A stretch of 64,000 nt of DNA, taken from contig JAFWNM010000028.1 in assembly GCA_017510335.1 (NCBI GenBank), positions 215,458-279,457 on the forward strand, read 5' to 3'. The translations under genes were made by a program, and so were the position numbers. This document shows, one piece after another, positions 35,404 through 47,333 of the stretch; within the stretch, counting starts at the first letter, position 1; each line of letters starts with the position of its first letter. The notes beneath the pieces are model-generated. The model was not told the DNA's origin. It did no database searches and saw only the letters and a program-made list of their open reading frames with translations. The DNA comes from Paracoccaceae bacterium. Its GTDB lineage: Bacteria > Pseudomonadota > Alphaproteobacteria > Rhodobacterales > Rhodobacteraceae.

Positions 35404-35749
35404 TGAAACAGGCTGTTCAAAAGTGGGAACGGGTTTTGAGCTTCTCGACCCCGCGAAACCAATAAGTGAAGTATGTCGCCCGAATGCCAATGAATGCGAC
35501 ATGGCCCAACCTTCGGCCAGAACGGCGCTTGCCGCCGCGTGATGGTCGCTGAACGCTTGCCCAGCGCAGCATCGCGGGCAAAACCGGCGGCCAAAGATAT
35601 GCATTTTGCCCGAAAAGGGGGCATCCATTGCTTTTGATGCCTGCAATATAAGCGGCATGATGGAACCGTACTGCGCCCCTGTGCCGCACACCCTTGTCGC
35701 GCGAAGGGCACGCTGCGATGCAGAAACCTGTTCGGGGCACAGGCGGGTC
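35404..35749. other. Region upstream of nasT with no supported gene
   Basis: About 345 bases between the SDR hairpin and nasT. Two minus-strand frames (down to 35401 and 35417) stay open through it but show no domain, no ribosome site and conflicting frames. The stretch must hold the nasTS promoter. I found no clear sigma-70 pair or NtrC palindrome by eye. Confidence 0.4.
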
Positions 35750-36325
35750 ATGAAACTTCACATTGTCATTGTCGAACCGGATCAGGACCGCGCACGGCTG
35801 ATGATTGACAGCCTGCGCCCCTTGGGCCACGCCGTGACTGTCATTGCCGAAGCTGCGGGCCTTGCGCGGCGGGTGCGCGACCTTGCGCCCGATATTGTCC
35901 TGATAGATATGGCCAACCCGTCGCGCGACACATTGGAAGAAATGGCGCTGGCTTCTGGCCCGCTGGACCGGCCCGTGGCCTTTTTTGTGGACCGCACAGA
36001 CCGTGACCTGACACATCAAGCCATCGAAGCGGGCGTTTCGGCCTATGTTGTGGACGGGCTGCAACCAGACCGCGTTGCAACGGTCATGGATGCGGCGATC
36101 ATGCGGTTTCAGATGTTCCGACGCATGCGCACCGAACTGGAAACCACGCGCCGCGCATTGGAGGAACGCAAGCTGATAGACCGCGCCAAGGGCATCTTGA
36201 TGAAAGCCCGCGGCCTGAGCGAGGAAGACGCCTATGCCCTGCTGCGCAAGGCCGCGATGGACCAGGGCCGCAAGGTTGCTGAAGTCGCCGGCGCATTGGT
36301 GACCGCAGCGGGGCTGCTGTCATGA
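35750..36325 (+). CDS. nasT: NasT: ANTAR-domain RNA-binding antiterminator
   Basis: A 191-residue regulator. The N-terminal receiver-like domain (MKLHIVIVEPDQDRARLMID) has Asp53 in PDIVLIDMANP at the phospho-site. The ANTAR domain (about 130-185) reads RKLIDRAKGILMKARGLSEEDAYALLRKAA, whose helices bind hexaloop RNA. In Azotobacter and Paracoccus NasT lets RNA polymerase pass a leader terminator and is held inactive by NasS. A suitable leader lies 1.3 kb downstream, in front of nrtA. I start at the ATG at 35750; the upstream in-frame stretch is not family-like. nasS overlaps by four bases. Confidence 0.92.
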   Translation: MKLHIVIVEPDQDRARLMIDSLRPLGHAVTVIAEAAGLARRVRDLAPDIVLIDMANPSRDTLEEMALASGPLDRPVAFFVDRTDRDLTHQAIEAGVSAYVVDGLQPDRVATVMDAAIMRFQMFRRMRTELETTRRALEERKLIDRAKGILMKARGLSEEDAYALLRKAAMDQGRKVAEVAGALVTAAGLLS

Positions 36326-37491: not shown

Positions 37492-37589
37492 AATATTAGG
37501 CTGTCGGGCGCTGGGTGGCACAATTTCAGGTTGTCCCCGCATCAAATATTTGACGTTCGTTCCGGCGTTGGGGACATAGTAGCATACTT

Positions 37590-37640
37590 GGACCAGCACC
37601 GTCGCTGTCCGAAATGACATAGACCGCCAATGATGGGGGT
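37590..37640 (+). promoter_or_regulatory. ANTAR-target leader: two hexaloop hairpins upstream of nrtA
   Basis: Hairpin P1 spans 37590-37610: stem GGACCAGC/GCTGTCC with one bulged C and a six-base loop ACCGTC. Hairpin P2 spans 37623-37640: stem ACCGCC/GGGGGT with one G-G mismatch and a six-base loop AATGAT. Both loops have A at position 1 and G at position 4, the pattern described for RNA bound by ANTAR proteins. They stand just before a strong terminator and nrtA, and downstream of nasT. The function is inferred from this layout. Confidence 0.78.
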
Positions 37641-37649
37641 TACGGGCAC

Positions 37650-37707
37650 AGCCGCCTGACCGATCCACGCAGCATGCGCTGGTTCCGGTCGGCGGCTTTT
37701 TTGTTTT
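37650..37707 (+). terminator. Leader terminator (regulated) before nrtA
   Basis: A long stem pairs agccgcc with ggcggct and gaccg with cggtc, with one bulged T. It ends in six T, one G and four more T. It sits 47 bases before the nrtA start and would stop the nitrate operon unless antiterminated by NasT. Confidence 0.88.
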
Positions 37708-37753: not shown

Positions 37754-39118
37754 ATGATCCGCAAGTTACTTCTGACCACATCGGCCCTTGCAACACTGGC
37801 TTCCGCCCCCTTGCAGGCCACCGACTTCCCCGAGATTGAGGATCTGACCCTCGGTTTCATCAAACTGACAGACATGGCGCCATTGGCCATCGCCTATGAA
37901 CGCGGGTATTTCGAGGATGAGGGGCTGTTTGTCACCCTTGAAGCACAAGCCAACTGGAAGGTGCTTTTGGATGGCGTGATTGACGGCAACCTGCACGGTG
38001 CGCATATGCTGGCAGGTCAGCCCTTGGCAGCGACAATCGGCTTTGGCACCAAGGCGCATATCGTCACCCCCTTCGTTATGGACCTGAACGGCAATGCCAC
38101 CACCGTATCCAACGAGGTTTGGGACATGATGCGCCCGGCCATTGCATCCGGTGCCGATGGCCGCCCCGAACACCCCATTTCCGCAGCAGCCTTGCGCCCC
38201 GCGCTGGACGCTTTTGCCGATCAGGGCCGCCCGTTCAACATGGGCATGGTGTTTCCCGTCTCAACCCATAATTTCGAATTGCGCTACTGGCTGGCCGCAG
38301 GGGGCATTCACCCGGGCTTTTACAGTGCGGACAATATCAGCGGCCAGATCGATGCCGAAGTGCTGTTGTCAGTAACCCCGCCCCCCCAAATGCCCGCCAC
38401 ATTGGAAGCAGGCACCATCAGCGGCTACACTGTGGGCGAACCGTGGAACCAGCAGGCAGTTGCAATGGGCATTGGTGTCCCTGTCGCCACGGATCTGGAT
38501 ATCTTTCCCATGCGCGCCGAAAAGGTTCTGGGCCTGCGCGCCGATTTTGTGGAACAAAACCCCAACACTGTGCGCGCCCTGACACGCGCGCTTATTCGTG
38601 CGGCCATGTGGCTGGATGCTGAAAACAATGCCAACCGCGACGAAGCTGTGCAGATCATCAGTCGCCCGAATTATGTCGGTGCCGATGAACAGGTATTGGC
38701 CAATTCCATGACCGGCACATTCGAATTCGAACCAGGTGACGTGCGCCCTGTTGCTGATTTCAATGTGTTCTTCCGCTATAACGCCAACTATCCCTTCCTG
38801 TCGGATGCAGTGTGGTATTTGACCCAGATGCGCCGCTGGGGCCAGATAACTGACGCGCAGCCAGATGACTGGTATGCCGGTATTGCCCAAAGCGTATTTC
38901 TGTCCGATCTGTTTCTGGACGCGGCGCAATCGCTGGTTGATGACGGGCTGGCCCCGCGCGATGCCTTCCCTTTTGACAGTGACGGCTACCGCGATGTGGC
39001 TGATCACGCCATTGACGGCATCCCCTATGATGGCCGCACTCCCAACGCCTATATCGACAGCTTGCCCATCGGCCTGAAGGGCGAGCAGCGCGTGACCGGC
39101 GGCGGCGTGCAGGGCTAG
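37754..39118 (+). CDS. nrtA: Nitrate ABC transporter substrate-binding protein
   Basis: A 454-residue periplasmic protein that captures nitrate (possibly nitrite). A signal peptide (MIRKLLLTTSALATLASAPLQA) is cut before TDFPEIEDLTLGF. Family blocks include DMAPLAIAYERGYFEDEGL, GMVFPVSTHNFELRYWLAAGG and GYTVGEPWNQQAV. No lipobox cysteine is seen, unlike cyanobacterial NrtA, so it is a soluble periplasmic form. It is the first gene behind the ANTAR-regulated leader. Confidence 0.93.
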   Translation: MIRKLLLTTSALATLASAPLQATDFPEIEDLTLGFIKLTDMAPLAIAYERGYFEDEGLFVTLEAQANWKVLLDGVIDGNLHGAHMLAGQPLAATIGFGTKAHIVTPFVMDLNGNATTVSNEVWDMMRPAIASGADGRPEHPISAAALRPALDAFADQGRPFNMGMVFPVSTHNFELRYWLAAGGIHPGFYSADNISGQIDAEVLLSVTPPPQMPATLEAGTISGYTVGEPWNQQAVAMGIGVPVATDLDIFPMRAEKVLGLRADFVEQNPNTVRALTRALIRAAMWLDAENNANRDEAVQIISRPNYVGADEQVLANSMTGTFEFEPGDVRPVADFNVFFRYNANYPFLSDAVWYLTQMRRWGQITDAQPDDWYAGIAQSVFLSDLFLDAAQSLVDDGLAPRDAFPFDSDGYRDVADHAIDGIPYDGRTPNAYIDSLPIGLKGEQRVTGGGVQG

Positions 39119-39228: not shown

Positions 39229-40299
39229 ATGACTGTGACCGAAACGACCGCCAACCTTGCAGACCGCCGCGCCCGTCTGTTCACGCGGATCAACAAACTT
39301 GATGGCTGGTTCAAGGTGCTGGGCCTGTCCTTCATGACACCGCTTTTGCGTGCGCTTGCAGGGGACAACCCGCGCGCCCAAGGCAAACAGATCTGGCAGC
39401 TTCTGGGCGTGCCGGTTCTGGCAATCATGGGGTTCTTGCTACTGTGGGGCAATCTTGCGCCGCGGGTGGAAACATCGCTTGGGGCCATTCCCGGCCCCGC
39501 GCAGGTCTGGTCGCAGGTTCAGGTTCTGCATGGCGAACATCTGGCGGAAAACGCGCGCAGGACCGAATTCCTGCAGCGGCAGGATGCGCGCAACGCGGAA
39601 CTTGTGGCCGCAGGACAGGCCGATCGTGTGCGCGAACGCAGCTACACCGGATCGCCCACCTATTATAACCAGATCTGGACGTCAGTGCAGACCGTGTTCT
39701 TTGGCTTCATCATCGCAACCGCGATTGCAGTGCCATTGGGCATTGCGGCCGGGTTGTCGCCCACTGCAAATGCCGCGCTGAACCCGTTGATCCAGATATT
39801 CAAACCTGTCAGCCCGCTGGCATGGCTGCCCATTGTAACCATGGTGGTGTCAGCAGTGTATGTCACACAGGACGGCATGTTTTCGCGGTCTTTTCTGACA
39901 TCGGCCATCACGGTGACCCTGTGTTCGCTGTGGCCGACATTGATCAACACGGCCCTTGGCGTGGCCAGCATAGACCGCGACCTGATTTCGGTCAGCCGTG
40001 TGTTGAAGCTGAACACCTGGACGAAGATCACGCGTCTGGTGCTGCCATCGGCCTTGCCACTGATTTTCACAGGGTTGCGCCTGTCGTTGGGGGTTGGCTG
40101 GATGGTGCTTATTGCCGCCGAAATGCTGGCGCAAAACCCCGGTCTTGGAAAATTTGTCTGGGATGAATTTCAGAACGGGTCTTCCACCAGCCTGGCGCGC
40201 ATCATGGTTGCCGTGTTCACCATCGGGATCATCGGCTTCCTTCTGGACCGGATGATGTATGCGCTGCAATCGCTTTTCACCTATTCGAACAACAGGTAA
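39229..40299 (+). CDS. nrtB: Nitrate ABC transporter permease
   Basis: A 356-residue inner-membrane permease of the NitT/TauT type. A polar N-terminus (1 to about 55) comes before the first helix, and a charged periplasmic loop (about 95-140, rich in Arg/Glu) before the core. The transmembrane core has FIIATAIAVPLGIAAGLS, the EAA-like stretch VSRVLKLNTWTKITRLVLPSALP and LGVGWMVLIAAEML. GGAG at a good distance precedes the ATG. The nrtCD ATPase gene follows after 5 bp. Confidence 0.93.
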   Translation: MTVTETTANLADRRARLFTRINKLDGWFKVLGLSFMTPLLRALAGDNPRAQGKQIWQLLGVPVLAIMGFLLLWGNLAPRVETSLGAIPGPAQVWSQVQVLHGEHLAENARRTEFLQRQDARNAELVAAGQADRVRERSYTGSPTYYNQIWTSVQTVFFGFIIATAIAVPLGIAAGLSPTANAALNPLIQIFKPVSPLAWLPIVTMVVSAVYVTQDGMFSRSFLTSAITVTLCSLWPTLINTALGVASIDRDLISVSRVLKLNTWTKITRLVLPSALPLIFTGLRLSLGVGWMVLIAAEMLAQNPGLGKFVWDEFQNGSSTSLARIMVAVFTIGIIGFLLDRMMYALQSLFTYSNNR

Positions 40300-40304
40300 C
40301 CGTC

Positions 40305-41966
40305 ATGTCCATTTTGGAATTCAAGCAGGTGTGCAAAGGCTTCGGAACAGGGCTGGACCGCAAGGAGGTGCTCAAGAACATCACCTTGCAGGTTCAGGAT
40401 GGCGAATTTCTGGCGATACTGGGCTTTTCCGGCACTGGCAAAACCACGCTGATCAACCAGATTGCGGGCCTTGATCACCCCGATAGCGGGCAGGTGCTGT
40501 TCAAGGGCGCCCCCATTACCGGGCCGGGGCCGGAACGTGGGCTGGTGTTTCAGTCCTATTCCCTTATGCCGTGGCTGACAGTGGCGGGCAATGTCGCGCT
40601 GGCGGTGGATGCAGTGCATAAATCCGCCAACCGCGCAGACCGCGCCGCAATCGTTGATAAATATGTTGCCATGGTGGGGCTGGCCCACGCCAAGGGGCGT
40701 CGCCCGGCGGAACTGTCGGGCGGTATGCGCCAACGTGTGTCTGTGGCGCGTGCGCTTGCAATGAACCCTGAAATGCTGCTGCTTGATGAGCCACTCTCGG
40801 CGCTGGACGCCCTGACGCGCGCCAATCTGCAAGACGAGATCACGCAGATTTGGCAGGCCGATCAGAAAACCGTGGTTCTGATTACCAATGACGTTGACGA
40901 AGCGCTGCTTCTGGCTGACCGGGTTATTCCGCTGAACCCCGATGGCACGCTTGGCAACGCGTTTAACGTGGCCATCCCCCGCCCGCGCATGCGCACAGCT
41001 ACGAATAACGATCCGGTGTTCAAGAAACTGCGCGCCGAAATTACCAAATACCTGATGGATGTGGGCATCGCTGCCAAAGTCGCGGAAACGCGCAAACTGC
41101 CGGATGTCACGCCCCTTCACGGCACACCCAAAGCCTATGCGCAGGCCGCAAAAAGCGGGATTGATGAAAAATATCTGGAATTCTCGCAACTTTCCAAGGT
41201 GTATCCCACGCCAGAAGGTCCGCTGACTGTGGTGGACCGGTTCGACCTGAAAATGAAGAAGGGCGAATTTGTCAGTTTGATCGGGCATTCGGGCTGCGGC
41301 AAATCCACAGTGCTGACAATGGCCGCGGGCCTCAATGACATATCCGGCGGTGCGATCAAGCTCGACGGGATGGAAGTGCACGGCGCCAACCCCGAACGCG
41401 CCGTTGTATTCCAGTCGCCCAGCCTGTTTCCCTGGCTTTCGGCCAAGGAAAACGTGGCCATCGGGGTGGACCGTGTCTATCCGCGCGCCAGCCGCACTGA
41501 GCGTCAGGATGTGGTGGAATATTATCTGGAACGTGTGGGCCTTGGCGATGCGATGGACCGGCAGGCGGCAGAGCTGTCCAACGGTATGAAGCAGCGTGTG
41601 GGCATTGCACGCGCCTTCGCGCTTAGCCCCAAACTGCTGTTGCTGGACGAACCCTTCGGGATGCTGGACAGCCTGACGCGCTGGGAATTGCAGGAAGTGC
41701 TGATGGAAGTGTGGTCACGCACCAAAGTGACCGCGATTTGCGTGACCCATGATGTGGATGAAGCCATCCTTCTGGCAGACCGCGTGGTGATGATGACCAA
41801 TGGCCCGCGCGCGCGTATCGGCAAGATTGTGGATGTGCACCTGCCGCGCCCGCGCACCCGCAAGGCGCTGCTCGAACACCCCGACTACTACAATTACCGC
41901 GCCGAGGTTCTGCAGTTTCTTGAAGACTACGAACATGGCGCGCACAAGAAGAAGGAGGCCGCGTGA
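40305..41966 (+). CDS. nrtC: Double ATP-binding subunit of the nitrate transporter (NrtC-NrtD fusion)
   Basis: A 553-residue protein with two full ABC ATPase cassettes. NBD1 has Walker A GFSGTGKT (40-47), signature LSGGM (137-141) and Walker B MLLLDEP, but the switch histidine is Asn195 (VLITNDVDEA). NBD2 has Walker A GHSGCGKST (327-335), signature LSNGM (424-428), Walker B LLLLDEP and intact His482. In a head-to-tail dimer the altered NBD1 switch and altered NBD2 signature fall in the same ATP site, leaving one canonical site. Separate NrtC and NrtD are usual in cyanobacteria; here they are fused. The C-terminal solute-sensing NrtC domain is absent. Confidence 0.93.
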   Translation: MSILEFKQVCKGFGTGLDRKEVLKNITLQVQDGEFLAILGFSGTGKTTLINQIAGLDHPDSGQVLFKGAPITGPGPERGLVFQSYSLMPWLTVAGNVALAVDAVHKSANRADRAAIVDKYVAMVGLAHAKGRRPAELSGGMRQRVSVARALAMNPEMLLLDEPLSALDALTRANLQDEITQIWQADQKTVVLITNDVDEALLLADRVIPLNPDGTLGNAFNVAIPRPRMRTATNNDPVFKKLRAEITKYLMDVGIAAKVAETRKLPDVTPLHGTPKAYAQAAKSGIDEKYLEFSQLSKVYPTPEGPLTVVDRFDLKMKKGEFVSLIGHSGCGKSTVLTMAAGLNDISGGAIKLDGMEVHGANPERAVVFQSPSLFPWLSAKENVAIGVDRVYPRASRTERQDVVEYYLERVGLGDAMDRQAAELSNGMKQRVGIARAFALSPKLLLLDEPFGMLDSLTRWELQEVLMEVWSRTKVTAICVTHDVDEAILLADRVVMMTNGPRARIGKIVDVHLPRPRTRKALLEHPDYYNYRAEVLQFLEDYEHGAHKKKEAA

Positions 41967-44407
41967 TGAAACAGAAACTCGTCATCATCGGCGCGGGAAT
42001 GGCCTCGGGGCGCGTGATAGAACACCTGCTGGCGGGGGACCCTGACGGTTGGGACATAACCTTGTTCAATGCCGAACCGCGCGGGAATTACAATCGCATC
42101 ATGCTGTCGCCGGTGCTGTCGGGCGAAAAGACCTATCAGGATATTGTGATCCATGACGATGCTTTCTACACGGGCCATAACATCACCTGTCGCTTTGGCG
42201 AGCCGGTGGTGCGCATCGACCGCAAGAACAAGGTTGTCTATTCCAACGCGGGCGGCGCGCCTTATGACAAGCTGCTGATTGCCACAGGCTCCGCGCCGTT
42301 CATCATTCCGGTCGCAGGCAAGGATTTGCCCGGTGTTGTGACCTACCGTGACCTTGATGACACCAACGCGATGATGGCTGCCGCAGAAAAACCGGGGGGC
42401 AGGGCGGTTGTTATCGGTGGTGGTCTGTTGGGGTTGGAAGCCGCCGCAGGGCTGAAGGCGCGCGGCATGGAGGTGACGGTCATTCACTTGATGGGCCATT
42501 TGATGGAACGCCAGTTGGACCCCGCCGCAGGCTACCTGCTGCAAAAGGATCTGGAGGCGCGCGGAATTGCGGTGCATTGCAAAGGTGCCACCAAAGCCAT
42601 TCTGGGCAAGGACCATGTTGAAGCCGTGCTGCTGGAAGATGGAACTGTCTATCCTGCGGATATGGTGTGCATGGCGGTGGGCATTCGTCCTGAAACGCGC
42701 CTTGCCACGGATGCAGCCCTTGATGTGGCGCGCGGGGTAAACGTGACCGACCAGATGGTGACATCGGACCCCGACATTCTGGCGGTGGGCGAATGCGTGG
42801 AACATGACAGCCAGCTTTTCGGCCTTGTTGCCCCGCTTTATGATCAGGCGCGTGTGGTGGCGGCCACGCTTCTGGGGCAGGATGCAGCCTTTGCCCCTGT
42901 CCAGACCGCGACCAAGCTGAAAGTCACCGGGGTTGATTTGTTCAGCGCGGGCGATTTTGCGGATGGGGCAGGGCGCGAGGATATTGTCTACCGTGACCCG
43001 GCGCGCGGGGTTTATAAACGGCTGGTCATCGAAAAAGACCGGCTGGTTGGCGCGGTCATGTATGGCGACACGGCGGACGGGCCTTGGTTCTTCGGACTGA
43101 TCAAGGACGGGGCCGATATTGCGCCCATGCGCGACACCCTGATCTTCGGGCCGGCCTATCAGGGGGGTGCCCAGGCGGACCCTTTGGCAGCCGTTGCAGC
43201 ATTGCCGCCTGATGCGGAAATTTGCGGCTGCAACGGCATATGCAAGGGTGCGATCACAGCGGCCATCGACGCGGGCGCGTCCACTTTGGCCGACATTCGC
43301 GCCACCACCAAGGCCAGCGCGTCCTGCGGCACCTGCACAGGGCTGGTCGAACAGGTTCTTGCCAGTACCCTGGGTGATGCGTTCCAGATGCCCGCAGCGC
43401 AGCCCATATGCGGCTGCACGGACCTGACGCATGAAGATGTGCGCCGCCTGATCAAGGCGCGCGGGCTGAAATCCATGCCGGCTGTCATGCAGGAACTGGG
43501 GTGGAAAACACCTTGCGGCTGCCATGTCTGCCGCCCAGCGCTGAATTTCTACCTGCTGGCGGACTGGCCGCAGGACTACACCGACGATCCGCAAAGCCGT
43601 TTTGTCAATGAACGCAACCACGCCAACATTCAAAAGGACGGCACTTATTCAGTGGTTCCACGCATGTGGGGGGGCATGACCAACCCGCGCGAATTGCGCG
43701 CCATTGCCGATGCGGCCGAAAAATACGCCATCCCGGCGGTCAAGGTCACGGGCGGGCAGCGCATTGACCTGCTGGGCGTGCAAAAAGAACATCTGCCCCA
43801 TATCTGGGCCGATCTGAACGCGGCGGGGCTGGTTTCTGGCCACGCCTATTCCAAGGGGCTGCGCACAGTGAAAACCTGTGTCGGCACCGACTTTTGCCGC
43901 TTTGGCACGCAGGATTCCACGGGCCTTGGCATCAAGCTGGAAAAACGGCTTTGGGGGTCATGGACACCGCATAAGGTTAAACTGGCCGTGTCGGGCTGCC
44001 CGCGCAACTGTGCGGAATCCACCTGCAAGGATGTGGGGATCATCTGCGTCGATAGCGGCTTCGAGATTGGCGTGGGCGGTGCTGCGGGCATGGACCTGAA
44101 GGAAACCGAACGATTGGCCAAGGTCGAAACCGAAGCGGAAGCCATCGATCTGACCGTGGCCTTTGTCCAGCTTTACCGCGAACACGCCAAATATCTGGAC
44201 CGGCCCTATAAATGGCTGGCCAAGGTGGGGCTGGACTGGGTGCAGGCGCAAATTGTGGACAACCCCGCCAACCGCGCCGCCCTGATCAAACGCTTCGATC
44301 TGTCGCAAAGCATCTATCAGCGCGACCCATGGGCGGACCGGGCAACGCCGCAAGCACAGGCCGATTTCGCGCCGCTGGCCGATCTTACGAAGGAGGCCGC
44401 GGAATGA
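41966..44407 (+). CDS. nirB: Assimilatory nitrite reductase [NAD(P)H] large subunit
   Basis: An 813-residue cytoplasmic enzyme that reduces nitrite to ammonium. The FAD/NAD(P)H half opens KLVIIGAGMASGRVIEHLL and has a second Rossmann loop AVVIGGGLLGLEAAAGLK. Two BFD-like [2Fe-2S] regions follow (ICGCNGICKGAI with SCGTCTG, then ICGCTDLTHEDV with CGCHVC). The C-terminal half binds sirohaem and [4Fe-4S] through CVGTDFCRFG and SGCPRNCAESTCKD. I use the ATG at 41966 behind GGAGG; it shares one base with the nrtCD stop. nirD overlaps by four bases. Called NasB in Paracoccus. Confidence 0.96.
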   Translation: MKQKLVIIGAGMASGRVIEHLLAGDPDGWDITLFNAEPRGNYNRIMLSPVLSGEKTYQDIVIHDDAFYTGHNITCRFGEPVVRIDRKNKVVYSNAGGAPYDKLLIATGSAPFIIPVAGKDLPGVVTYRDLDDTNAMMAAAEKPGGRAVVIGGGLLGLEAAAGLKARGMEVTVIHLMGHLMERQLDPAAGYLLQKDLEARGIAVHCKGATKAILGKDHVEAVLLEDGTVYPADMVCMAVGIRPETRLATDAALDVARGVNVTDQMVTSDPDILAVGECVEHDSQLFGLVAPLYDQARVVAATLLGQDAAFAPVQTATKLKVTGVDLFSAGDFADGAGREDIVYRDPARGVYKRLVIEKDRLVGAVMYGDTADGPWFFGLIKDGADIAPMRDTLIFGPAYQGGAQADPLAAVAALPPDAEICGCNGICKGAITAAIDAGASTLADIRATTKASASCGTCTGLVEQVLASTLGDAFQMPAAQPICGCTDLTHEDVRRLIKARGLKSMPAVMQELGWKTPCGCHVCRPALNFYLLADWPQDYTDDPQSRFVNERNHANIQKDGTYSVVPRMWGGMTNPRELRAIADAAEKYAIPAVKVTGGQRIDLLGVQKEHLPHIWADLNAAGLVSGHAYSKGLRTVKTCVGTDFCRFGTQDSTGLGIKLEKRLWGSWTPHKVKLAVSGCPRNCAESTCKDVGIICVDSGFEIGVGGAAGMDLKETERLAKVETEAEAIDLTVAFVQLYREHAKYLDRPYKWLAKVGLDWVQAQIVDNPANRAALIKRFDLSQSIYQRDPWADRATPQAQADFAPLADLTKEAAE

Positions 44408-44736
44408 ACTGGCTTGATATTGGCGCGCTAAGCGACATTCCCCAACGTGGCGCGCGATTGGTCAAAACCATGCATGGTTGCGTGGCGGTGTTTCGCACCG
44501 GCGATGATGAAGTTTTTGCCATTGATGACCGCTGCCCGCACAAGGGCGGGCCATTGTCCGAAGGGATCGTGCACGGCCATGCGGTGACATGTCCCTTGCA
44601 TAATATGGTCATTTCTTTGGAAAGCGGACTGGCCCAGGGGGCAGATCAGGGCGCGGTAGCCACTTACCCCGCACGGGTCGAGGACGGGCGCATCTTGCTG
44701 GATGCCAAGCGCCTGATCCGTGGGGCGGCGGCATGA
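44404..44736 (+). CDS. nirD: Nitrite reductase small subunit / Rieske ferredoxin (NirD/NasG)
   Basis: A 110-residue protein with a complete Rieske [2Fe-2S] site: Cys44 and His46 in DRCPHKGGPL, Cys63 and His66 in VTCPLHNMV. Many NirD proteins lack these ligands; here they are all kept, so it should carry electrons, like NasG in Paracoccus, which links NirB to the nitrate reductase. The ATG at 44404 overlaps the nirB stop in ATGA, and the stop overlaps the nitrate reductase start by four bases. This tight spacing suggests a fixed ratio of the three proteins. Confidence 0.94.
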   Translation: MNWLDIGALSDIPQRGARLVKTMHGCVAVFRTGDDEVFAIDDRCPHKGGPLSEGIVHGHAVTCPLHNMVISLESGLAQGADQGAVATYPARVEDGRILLDAKRLIRGAAA

Positions 44737-47333
44737 GCACGGTCCGCACCACCTGCCCCTATTGCGGCGTCGGCTGCGGTGTTCTGGTCACGCCCAACGG
44801 GGCAGGGGGCGCGATGGTCAAGGGTGATCCCGACCATCCGGCGAATTTCGGGCGGCTGTGCTCCAAGGGCGCGGCGCTTGGCGAAACGCTGGGGCTGGAC
44901 GGGCGCATCCTGACGCCTGTGGTTGGTGGTGCGCCCGCAACATGGGACAGTGCGCTGGATCTGGTCGCGGGCCGGTTTAAGGCCGCAATCCGCGATCATG
45001 GCCCCGATAGCGTGGCCTTCTACCTGTCCGGCCAGATGCTGACCGAGGATTATTATGTCGCCAACAAGCTGATCAAGGGCTACATGGGCACGGCCAATGT
45101 CGACACCAATTCGCGGCTGTGCATGGCGTCATCCGTAGCGGGCCACAAGCGCGCGTTCGGCGCGGACACAGTGCCGGGCACCTATGACGATCTGGATCAG
45201 GCCGATCTGGTGGTGCTGGTGGGCAGCAATCTGGCATGGTGCCATCCGGTTCTATACCAACGGCTGGTTGCGGCAAAAGCGGCGCGCGGCACACGCGTTG
45301 TCGTGGTGGACCCGCGCCGCACTGCAACTTGCGACATTGCCGACCTGCATCTGGCGCTTGCGCCGGGCAGCGATGCCGCGCTGTTTAACGCTGTGCTGGT
45401 TGCGCTGGCGGACAGGGGTGCGGTAAACCGCGCTTATGTCGCGCAGCATGTCGCGGGGTTTGACGCGGCCCTTGCCACGGCACGCGCCTCGGACCCCGCC
45501 ATGACCGGGCTGACAGCGCAGGATATGGCGTTGTTTCTGGACTGGTTCACGACCACCGACCGTGTTGTGACCGTCTATTCCCAAGGGATCAACCAGTCCT
45601 CCAGCGGCACTGACAAGGTGAACGCAATCCTGAATTGCCATCTGGCCAGCGGGCGTATTGGTCGCCCCGGCGCGGGGCCGTTTTCCGTCACCGGCCAGCC
45701 CAACGCGATGGGCGGGCGCGAAGTGGGGGGGCTGGCCAATATGCTGGCCTGCCATCTGGATATTGAAAACCCCGCCCACCGCGCCGCTGTGCAGGGGTTC
45801 TGGAAAAGCCCTGCCATGCCCGACAAACCCGGCCTGAAAGCAGTCGAGATGTTTGACGCGGTGGCCGATGGGCGCATCAAGGCGCTGTGGATTATCCACA
45901 CCAATCCTGCAGTCACCTTGCCCGATTCAGACGCCGTTGCGCGCGCCATCAAGGGGTGTGATTTCACCGTTGTCAGCGACATTACCCGGACGGATACCAC
46001 GCGACTGGCCGATGTTGTTTTGCCGGCCACTGCATGGGGCGAAAAATCGGGCACTGTCACCAATTCCGACCGCACGATCAGCCGCCAGCGCCCGTTTTTG
46101 CCCGCCCCCGGTCAGGCACGCGATGACTGGCGCATAGTTGCTGATGTCGCCGCGCGCATGGGGTGGGGCGCGGATTTTGGCTGGACCAGCGCGGGCGATG
46201 TGTTCGCTGAATACGCCGCGCTTTCTGGCGTTGCAGGCGATCTGGGGCGCGATTTCGACATTTCCGGGCTGGCGCAGGCCGATTATGATGCACTGCCCCC
46301 CACCCGCTGGCCGGTCAACGCGCGCAAACAAGGCGGGCGCTTCTTCGGGGGGGGCGGCTTCTTCACCCCCGATCAGCGCGCCCGGATGCTGCCCATCACC
46401 CCGCGCTTGCCCGTGGCCAAAACCGCCCCGCGCTACCCGTTCCGTCTGAACACTGGGCGCATCCGTGACCAGTGGCACACAATGACGCGCACCGCACTTG
46501 CGCCGCGTCTGAACCAGCATATCGCGGAACCGTTTCTGGAAATCCATCCATCTGATGCAGCGGGCCTTGGCTTGATGCCTGCAACCCTTGCGCATGTGAC
46601 AAGCCCGCAGGGGCAGGCTATTTTGCGTGTGTCCATTTCTGACCGGGTGCAGCGGGGCCATGTGTTTGCACCGATGCACTGGAGTGGCGAAACTGCGCCG
46701 TCAGGGCGGGTGGATGCCCTTGTCGCGCCAGTGACAGACCCAGTGTCGGGCCAACCCGAAAGCAAGGCCGCAGTTGTGGCGGTCGCGGCGCTGGTGCCTG
46801 CATGGTATGGCTTTGCTGTGTCAGTTGGCCCACAAAACCCCGACGCCGCCTATTGGGCACGCGCCCGATGCGAGGGCGGCTGGCGCAGCGAACTTGCCGG
46901 AACAGCGCTTCCCCACAATTGGGAGGCTTACGCCCGCGCGCTGTTCAACCTGCCCGATGCAACCTGCCTGAGTGTCGAGGACCGCGTGCGCGGCACCCAC
47001 CGCATCGCGCTGATGGAGGGCGGGCGCGCCTTGGCCGCGCTGTTTGCCGCACCCGACCCTGTGCAACTGGCGCGCGGGCATATCGCGGCGCAGGTGGGGC
47101 AGGCCGGGGCCGCGCTTTTGGCCGGTCGCCCCGGCGCGGGCGTTGTCGATCCCGGCCCGACCGTGTGCGCCTGCCTGAATGTCGGATTGCATACCATCAC
47201 AACGGCCATTGCAACGCAAAACCTGACATCAGTTGACCAGATCGGCGCGGCCCTGCATGCGGGCACAAGCTGCGGATCATGCCGTCCCGAACTGGCCGCC
47301 CTGCTGGCCAGGCAGATGGAGGCCGCAGAATGA
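44733..47333 (+). CDS. nasC: Assimilatory nitrate reductase catalytic subunit
   Basis: An 866-residue cytoplasmic molybdenum bis-MGD enzyme reducing nitrate to nitrite. The N-terminal [4Fe-4S] ligands are Cys8, Cys11, Cys15 and Cys43 (TCPYCGVGCGV and RLCSKG). The MGD-binding region includes NSRLCMASSVAGHKRAFG with the likely Mo-ligand cysteine, and a C-terminal molydopterin dinucleotide domain (LNTGRIRDQWHTMTRT). A BFD-like [2Fe-2S] tail (CACLNVGL, GTSCGSCRPEL) ends the protein. There is no Tat signal. Electrons probably come through NirD/NirB. It is the equivalent of NasA in Klebsiella. Confidence 0.95.
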   Translation: MSTVRTTCPYCGVGCGVLVTPNGAGGAMVKGDPDHPANFGRLCSKGAALGETLGLDGRILTPVVGGAPATWDSALDLVAGRFKAAIRDHGPDSVAFYLSGQMLTEDYYVANKLIKGYMGTANVDTNSRLCMASSVAGHKRAFGADTVPGTYDDLDQADLVVLVGSNLAWCHPVLYQRLVAAKAARGTRVVVVDPRRTATCDIADLHLALAPGSDAALFNAVLVALADRGAVNRAYVAQHVAGFDAALATARASDPAMTGLTAQDMALFLDWFTTTDRVVTVYSQGINQSSSGTDKVNAILNCHLASGRIGRPGAGPFSVTGQPNAMGGREVGGLANMLACHLDIENPAHRAAVQGFWKSPAMPDKPGLKAVEMFDAVADGRIKALWIIHTNPAVTLPDSDAVARAIKGCDFTVVSDITRTDTTRLADVVLPATAWGEKSGTVTNSDRTISRQRPFLPAPGQARDDWRIVADVAARMGWGADFGWTSAGDVFAEYAALSGVAGDLGRDFDISGLAQADYDALPPTRWPVNARKQGGRFFGGGGFFTPDQRARMLPITPRLPVAKTAPRYPFRLNTGRIRDQWHTMTRTALAPRLNQHIAEPFLEIHPSDAAGLGLMPATLAHVTSPQGQAILRVSISDRVQRGHVFAPMHWSGETAPSGRVDALVAPVTDPVSGQPESKAAVVAVAALVPAWYGFAVSVGPQNPDAAYWARARCEGGWRSELAGTALPHNWEAYARALFNLPDATCLSVEDRVRGTHRIALMEGGRALAALFAAPDPVQLARGHIAAQVGQAGAALLAGRPGAGVVDPGPTVCACLNVGLHTITTAIATQNLTSVDQIGAALHAGTSCGSCRPELAALLARQMEAAE

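Follow-up and report, generated by a model that had tools for sequence, protein, structure and literature searches.

A nitrate operon leader with three consecutive ANTAR-type hexaloop hairpins ahead of an ABC-type importer in a Paracoccaceae bacterium

The first genes of the Klebsiella nasFEDCBA operon encode an ABC-type nitrate importer. ANTAR control of Klebsiella nasF, and NasT-dependent antitermination of nas leaders, are both already known. SELEX, described together with the nasF P1P2 hairpins, highlights a C:G pair, A1 and G4, and the two-hairpin motif is present also in NasT systems (PMC7496416); dual-hairpin matches have in addition been found upstream of nitrate transporters (PMC3369931). 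The linkers of the eut leaders in E. faecalis are 5-12 nt long, with 3 or 14 nt being harmful (PMC3369931), and those of actinobacterial ANTAR RNAs are 2-25 nt long (PMC8164766). It is not settled in what way an ANTAR dimer makes use of a pair of hairpins: in the EutV structure, contacts are confined to a single hexaloop, and each hexaloop is contacted in turn (PMC8934654). NasT targets have been described in Bradyrhizobium (PMC6759348), and in P. denitrificans NasT binds the leader RNA of nasA and the NasS-NasT complex is dissociated by nitrate, with the leader referred to as a "series of regulatory hairpins" for which that text does not give the data (PMC3795266). A P. denitrificans mutant in leader hairpin HI has lost growth on nitrate, and a mutant in HII is little affected on nitrate and 2-fold up on ammonium (PMC5424462). 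The leader that we describe here adds a third, upstream hexaloop, which recurs across Proteobacteria; we found no report of a three-hexaloop nas leader in our searches of open-licence papers.

The nitrate locus and its leader

We analyzed a 64-kb stretch of DNA (the window) from Paracoccaceae bacterium, assembly GCA_017510335.1, contig JAFWNM010000028.1, positions 215,458-279,457 of the forward strand. The locus has the order nasT-nasS, leader, nrtABC-nirBD-nasA, with all genes on the + strand:

35753..36325, + strand: nasT, REC-like plus ANTAR RNA-binding regulator, 190 aa
36322..37491, + strand: nasS, NrtA-like, presumed cytoplasmic nitrate/nitrite sensor, overlapping the end of nasT
37754..39118, + strand: nrtA-like nitrate-binding protein (Pfam NMT1_2, 290 bits), putatively the first regulated gene
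39229..40299, + strand: nrtB-like permease (TIGR01183 at 150.6 bits, under its cut-off of 209; BPD_transp_1 above cut-off)
40305..41966, + strand: fused nrtC/D with two nitrate-type ATP-binding domains (TIGR01184 in two stretches, 594 against a cut-off of 291.8)
41963..44407, + strand: nirB, nitrite reductase large subunit (TIGR02374, 863.5 bits, cut-off 578)
44398..44736, + strand: nirD, nitrite reductase small subunit (TIGR02378, 100.8 bits, cut-off 74.7)
44733..47333, + strand: molybdopterin oxidoreductase with a C-terminal BFD [2Fe-2S] domain (Pfam Molybdopterin, Fer2_BFD)

The top NCBIfam matches of this last product (Fdh-alpha and NasC) are under their cut-offs, and we read it as an assimilatory nitrate reductase of the nasA/nasC type from its operon context. 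NasT matches Pfam ANTAR at 77.3 bits (cut-off 27.3) and Response_reg at 25.1, under the cut-off of 30.2; its PDB matches are 1s8n, EutV (6wsh/6ww6) and NasR (4akk), and it is the one ANTAR match in its own genome at E<=0.001. NasS matches Pfam NMT1_2 at 209 bits, with NrtA (2g29, E 1.3e-38) as its top PDB match, i.e., an ANTAR protein adjoins an NrtA-like sensor, as in a NasS-NasT two-component system. The gap between nasS and nrtA is 262 bases long, and holds the leader, which stands downstream of nasT as the first-pass annotation of this DNA had described, with nasT-nasS directly upstream:

37550..37555, + strand: TTGACG, a weak candidate -35 of a leader promoter, from which transcription would start near H1
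37588..37612, + strand: H1, additional hexaloop hairpin at the upstream end, with the loop ACCGTC at 37598-37603
37622..37641, + strand: H2, middle hexaloop hairpin, loop AATGAT at 37629-37634, with a G-G mismatch at 37626/37637
37643..37658, + strand: H3, hexaloop hairpin CGGGC[ACAGCC]GCCTG, loop ACAGCC at 37648-37653
37650..37697, + strand: intrinsic terminator stem AGCCGCC..GGCGGCT (-30.0 kcal/mol, z -4.68)
37697..37707, + strand: T6-G-T4 tract of the terminator, read from the sequence

The leader consists of three consecutive C[ANNGNN]G hexaloop hairpins, each with A1, G4 and C:G closure, so that two adjacent hexaloops of this type are found in H2 and H3 and a further one in H1. The first-pass annotation had recognized H1 and H2, as its P1 and P2, and both are present with the loops and the A1/G4 pattern it gave; the long terminator stem and the T6-G-T4 tail, ending at 37707, are likewise as it described them. 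Its reading of the region as a NasT/NasS antitermination leader is well supported by our analysis, but its two-hexaloop anatomy is not, H3 having been missed. It had also placed the tail 47 bases before nrtA; the two are indeed close, with 46 bases counted between the end of the U tract at 37707 and the nrtA ATG at 37754. The loop and 3′ arm of H3 form the 5′ arm of the terminator, and H3 and the terminator are therefore mutually exclusive, which is the standard ANTAR geometry. The H2-H3 linker as folded is 1 nt, and the loops of H2 and H3 are 19 nt apart, those of H1 and H3 50 nt. The leader has no Rfam match at gathering scores, the two matches that were found being far under them.

Folding of positions 37588-37660, i.e., with the 3′ arm of the terminator omitted, gave exactly H1, H2 and H3, at -27.8 kcal/mol. 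When the RNA was lengthened stepwise, H3 remained intact to 37688, lost one pair at 37691, and was replaced by the terminator by 37697, so the overlapping hairpin and the terminator exclude each other in the computed folds as well. Across 37588-37706, the leader with H3 forced has -42.9 kcal/mol against -51.4 kcal/mol for the free fold, a cost of 8.5 kcal/mol, so that read-through requires H3 to be held in place in some way.

Using a hexaloop rule (C[ANNGNN]G with a stem score >=10) on both strands of the window, we identified 41 and 27 hairpins on the two strands, respectively, with a single cluster of three hairpins within 60 nt on either strand, which is the leader; 100 dinucleotide shuffles of the window, with ~45 such hairpins each, gave zero three-hairpin clusters within 60 nt. 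H2 and H3 are the only dual hexaloop in the window whose second loop overlaps a terminator, and this terminator scores 20, which is just the threshold value.

We consider, with a probability of about 0.85, that the leader is a NasT antitermination device with H3 as the loop that excludes the terminator, whichever hairpin partners H3. Behind the advancing RNA polymerase, H1 would fold first, followed by H2 and H3, as in the computed structures. If H3 is left unheld, the 3′ arm of the terminator displaces it in these folds, and transcription would be expected to stop at the U tract. Published work on NasS-NasT suggests that NasS would keep NasT inactive when nitrate and nitrite are absent; with either present, and taking into account what is described for ANTAR proteins, NasT would be freed, bind the C[ANNGNN]G loops and hold H3. 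With H3 held, the terminator would be prevented and the operon read. If H2 is the partner of H3, H1 would serve as an additional NasT site, made ~50 nt before H3.

Conservation of the leader among NasS relatives

In order to survey conservation, we collected 81 leaders, i.e., that of the window and those of the best 80 of at least 576 NasS relatives, from named genomes, with the nearest relative among the matches listed being Roseinatronobacter sp. HJB301 (NasS 86% identical). Column and fold counts refer to an uncorrected MAFFT alignment (alignment A1) in which L004, L006, L007, L061 and L079 are poorly lined up. The loop of H1 has A1 in 79 of 81 leaders and G4 in all 81, and the loop of H3, which is nearly invariant, has A1 in 77 and G4 in 80 of 81, the commonest form of H3 in the relatives being TGAGC[AAAGCC]GCTCG. 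The signature is strict in H3 and relaxed at A1 in H2, where A1 is present in 56 of 80 leaders, A or G at this position in 73 of 80, and G4 in 74 of 80; the H2 loop of the relatives often contains one extra base, and a loop of 5 or 7 bases can be drawn there. Since the H2 loop varies in this way, NasT may fail to bind H2 in the majority of species. The spacing between loops, counted in 76 of the 81 leaders (L004, L006, L007, L061 and L079 left out), is 23-31 nt for H1-H2, 18-25 nt for H2-H3 (median 21) and 43-53 nt for H1-H3.

Covariation across the related genomes, on which the first-pass annotation had staked its reading, is strong in H1 and the terminator and weak in H2 and H3. In the 81 leaders, 85.4% of the cells of H1, H2 and H3 are paired (<=42% in slid versions), and 192 cells have both sides changed compared to 71 in shuffles, most of them in H1, where 6 of 8 pairs show changes on both sides. 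For the terminator, 85.8% of cells are paired (<=65.4% in slid versions), with 52 both-side-changed cells compared to 16.6 in shuffles, and 9 of 13 pairs show changes on both sides. H2 and H3 show few compensatory changes because they hardly vary. When the leaders are folded with the 3′ arm of the terminator omitted, H1 forms in 79 of 81, H2 in 73, H3 in 74, and all three hairpins in 71, counts in which L004, L006, L007 and L079 were entered as H2 misses without a test; the leaders not folding all three are these four together with L042, L058, L061, L062, L064 and L071. In the folds of whole leaders, the terminator forms in 78 of 81 and H3 is kept in none of the 81.

At 79 of the 81 loci, an NrtA motif is matched by the long frame that comes next, and at an 80th (L004) by eye, the exception being L007. 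The first-pass annotation had regarded a leader of this kind as unreported in front of an ABC-type nitrate importer, a view at odds both with these counts and with Klebsiella nasFEDCBA, which is an ANTAR target (PMC3369931, PMC7496416). Two of the loci (L004:5170-5469 and L006:5170-5469) retain, 3′ of nasS, the hexaloop of H1 and a further A1/G4 hairpin beyond it, with no run of five T at the expected end of a terminator, and may use another mode of control. L007:5252-5376 (Rhodobacteraceae, strain LNNU 3342) contains two hexaloops only, 27 nt apart and before a terminator, with no NrtA-like gene found as its next frame, and is a natural two-hexaloop form within the Rhodobacteraceae group.

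The G-G mismatch in the middle of H2 is present where the first-pass annotation had seen it, but the idea that it tunes the stability of the hairpin finds no comparative support: by eye, L002 is the one other leader of the 81 aligned that shares the CCGCC/GGGGG arm of the window with this mismatch, and we reject it as a tuning device. In the window sequence, a short frame starts at an ATG within the H2 loop; the base that creates this ATG is a T in only 27 of 80 leaders, which speaks against control by a leader peptide.

The word TTTGAC is found 5′ of H1 also in L002, L004 and L005, and TTGAC starting 41-50 nt 5′ of the H1 loop occurs 8 times among the 81 leaders; a rule-based search identified no sigma-70 promoter for the leader. 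A perfect 12-bp palindrome, TCAAATATTTGA, lies at 37542-37553, 5′ of H1, and overlaps the possible -35 word; the aligned L002-L006 contain no clear copy of TCAAATATTTGA. An inverted repeat, TGTCCCC ... GGGGACA, flanks the possible leader promoter at 37532-37576. Three near-matches to the Paracoccus NtrC consensus, two of them overlapping, are located 5′ of nasT at 35607-35654. Matches to this published consensus with <=2 mismatches number 124 in the window compared to 137 expected, i.e., there is no excess, and we do not regard NtrC-type sites as established here.

A covariance model seeded with 75 of the 81 leaders, including the window (R1; L004, L006, L007, L061, L072 and L079 dropped), scores the leader at 40.2 bits in its own genome, with the next place at 16.1 bits (E 0.25). 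Over 289 genomes of the class, R1 matched 23 at E<=0.01, and a leader with a terminator is seen by eye in three of these (G000, G022 and G107), the others being chance-like. It is highly improbable, and the weakest of the alternatives, that the hairpin directly 3′ of nasS is a mere terminator of nasTS, with nrtA transcribed from its own downstream promoter and no switch at all, since this would not account for the persistence, throughout 81 leaders, of hexaloop hairpins and of an H3 that excludes the terminator, and the U tract is only 46 bases from nrtA.

Leaders in other families and the partner of H3

We scanned 52 loci around NasS-like matches, allowing a loop spacing of up to 75 nt, and observed a hexaloop pair with an overlapping terminator in 33 of them. 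The loops are separated by 18-24 nt in 16 of these 33 leaders and by 41-68 nt in the other 17, several of the long-spaced ones being from the window's own family. In the window, the H2-H3 spacing fits the short-spaced class and the H1-H3 spacing fits the long-spaced class. A middle hexaloop is present in the long-spaced leaders L115, L119, L145 and L157; by eye, at least L120, L124, L128 and L142 are without a strict middle A1/G4 hexaloop.

A stricter scan covered 129 loci, some mutually overlapping (L161 and L183 were too short), and allowed 16-30 nt between loops, so that the observed range of 17-29 nt is partly set by the rule. It gave 50 matches, or 48 after removal of identical 60-mers, and a control with one shuffle per locus gave zero matches. 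Of the 48 leaders, 11, from 11 family handles, contain a third A1/G4 hexaloop 45-66 nt 5′ of the loop that overlaps the terminator, where 0.4 would be expected by chance in all 48 (200 shuffles of the stretch per leader). One of the 11 (L147) belongs to the window's own family, and L187, L190, L233 and L241 are from outside the class. By eye, the next frame of the third-hexaloop leaders is NrtA-like in L115, L119, L147, L187 and L233, a major-facilitator transporter in L157, L190 and L241, NasS/NrtA-like in L137 and NirB in L171. At L169:4872 (+), a three-hexaloop leader with a terminator is followed by a frame that is outer-membrane-protein-like by eye, and L169 is possibly an additional type of NasT target.

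The covariance-model check proposed by the first-pass annotation was carried out with a second model (R2), seeded with 34 of the 37 two-hexaloop leaders that contain no third hexaloop (L152, L219 and L244 dropped), none of them from the window's family. Run on a 601-nt segment containing the leader, this independent model has its best match at 37622-37658, i.e., H2 and H3, at 17.9 bits (E 2.3e-4), with the next at 4.8. Within 781 kb, the same leader has an E of 0.3, and the search of its own genome does not list it among the results, which are six other places (best 19.6 bits) with no T run in the following 90 nt; R2 is useful locally and unspecific genome-wide. A further NasT regulon in this genome is rejected, given the low score of the next R1 place and these R2 places without a T run. 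At E<=1, the window and its 80 relatives gave 42 R2 matches, 37 in the leader and 5 elsewhere. The leader matches span H2-H3 only in 23 cases and H1 to H3 in 13 (including the two-hexaloop L007); in L054, H1 is the second hairpin of the match, which makes this the sole leader match without H3. A leader match containing H3 is found in 36 of the 81 sources, and 44 of the 81 have no leader match.

Based on spacing and on the match to this model, the partner of H3 is most likely H2, i.e., the canonical ANTAR P1 would be H2 and P2 would be H3. The reading that competes with it most closely retains the same core and makes H1 and H3 the functional pair, with H2 a structural spacer hairpin that NasT does not read. 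A1 and G4 are most strictly conserved in H1 and H3, 13 of the 37 leader matches of R2 extend from H1 as far as H3, and 17 of the 33 leaders of the wider scan have a best pair with a spacing of 41-68 nt, where the long-spaced leaders without a strict middle hexaloop favour this pairing. Set against this, the H2-H3 spacing of 18-25 nt in the relatives fits the short-spaced class (18-24 nt, 16 of 33), and that of H1-H3 (43-53 nt) does not; H2 keeps G4 in 74 of 80 leaders despite its variable other loop bases; and lengthening of the eut linker to 14 nt resulted in drastically less induction (PMC3369931). We judge H1+H3 to be a real contender, at less than even odds.

Far less probable is the version of the first-pass annotation, in which NasT binds H1 and H2 as a two-hexaloop leader ahead of a separate terminator. 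Both hairpins do exist with A1 and G4, and their spacing in relatives (23-31 nt) overlaps that of two-hexaloop leaders. However, H1 and H2 have no base in common with the terminator, which could thus still form if NasT were bound to these two alone, whereas the nearly invariant H3 is itself the 5′ arm of the terminator; in addition, R2 selects H2 and H3 in the window, and H3 is part of 36 of the 37 leader matches of this model. For lack of any overlap of H1 or H2 with the terminator, we reject H1+H2 as the main model of the antiterminator.

With H2 and H3 as the probable pair, H1 would be an addition, and two leaders with the same genus handle illustrate this. L157 has three hexaloops and L150 two, and the middle hexaloop of L157 is near-identical in sequence to the first of L150 and in the same place (-19); for this reason we take the canonical first hairpin to be H2, with H1 as the element that was added. 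By eye, L150 and L151 contain an upstream hairpin at about the place of H1 with a loop that is not A1/G4, and the upstream hairpin may therefore predate its ANTAR signature. We give even odds to what is the most likely role for H1, that of recruiting NasT early, or within a NasT oligomer, by which H3 would be caught before the 3′ arm of the terminator emerges. Somewhat more tentatively, and just short of even odds, we suggest that proteobacterial nitrate operons use a distinct three-hexaloop ANTAR class, in which H1 would load NasT (or an oligomer) on the nascent RNA and hand it to H2/H3, with a kinetic advantage over the terminator; such a class would recur in alpha- and other proteobacterial families and have been missed by the accepted two-hairpin description.

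Comparison with known systems

Natural leaders with three or two hexaloops and the same kind of regulator offer constructs with which loading could be separated from exclusion of the terminator, a distinction that bears on how an ANTAR dimer uses its hairpins, and they tell annotators which hairpin to seek before nitrate operons. Among the closest described systems is nasTS-nasA of P. denitrificans, which shares with our locus the upstream nasT-nasS and a hairpin leader, there of ~200 bp and as NasT-bound RNA (PMC3795266, PMC5424462). It differs in that nasA encodes a NarK-like transporter, as judged from a reference title, in place of an ABC importer, and in that the 2017 paper, in its account of the leader hairpins, names HI and HII only (PMC5424462), compared to H1-H3 here. 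Klebsiella nasF/NasR shares ANTAR antitermination, C:G-closed A1/G4 hexaloops, the second of which overlaps the terminator, and nitrate as the signal, but with the one-component NasR and a two-hairpin motif instead of NasS-NasT and three hairpins (PMC7496416, PMC3369931). In the Enterococcus eut/EutV system, a dual A1/G4 hexaloop with P2 inside the terminator stem and a short P1-P2 linker is likewise present, and the signal is ethanolamine/phosphorylation, unlike nitrate here (PMC3369931, PMC8934654); the descriptions of the eut leaders consulted in these sources include no third hexaloop, an extra single hexaloop being located in the EutX sRNA (PMC8934654). Finally, the two-hexaloop nas leaders of other Proteobacteria (L116, L150, L192 and others) contain the same C[ANNGNN]G pair with short loop spacing, and with the second hexaloop inside the terminator as in the window, and differ from the window in being without a strict upstream third hexaloop.
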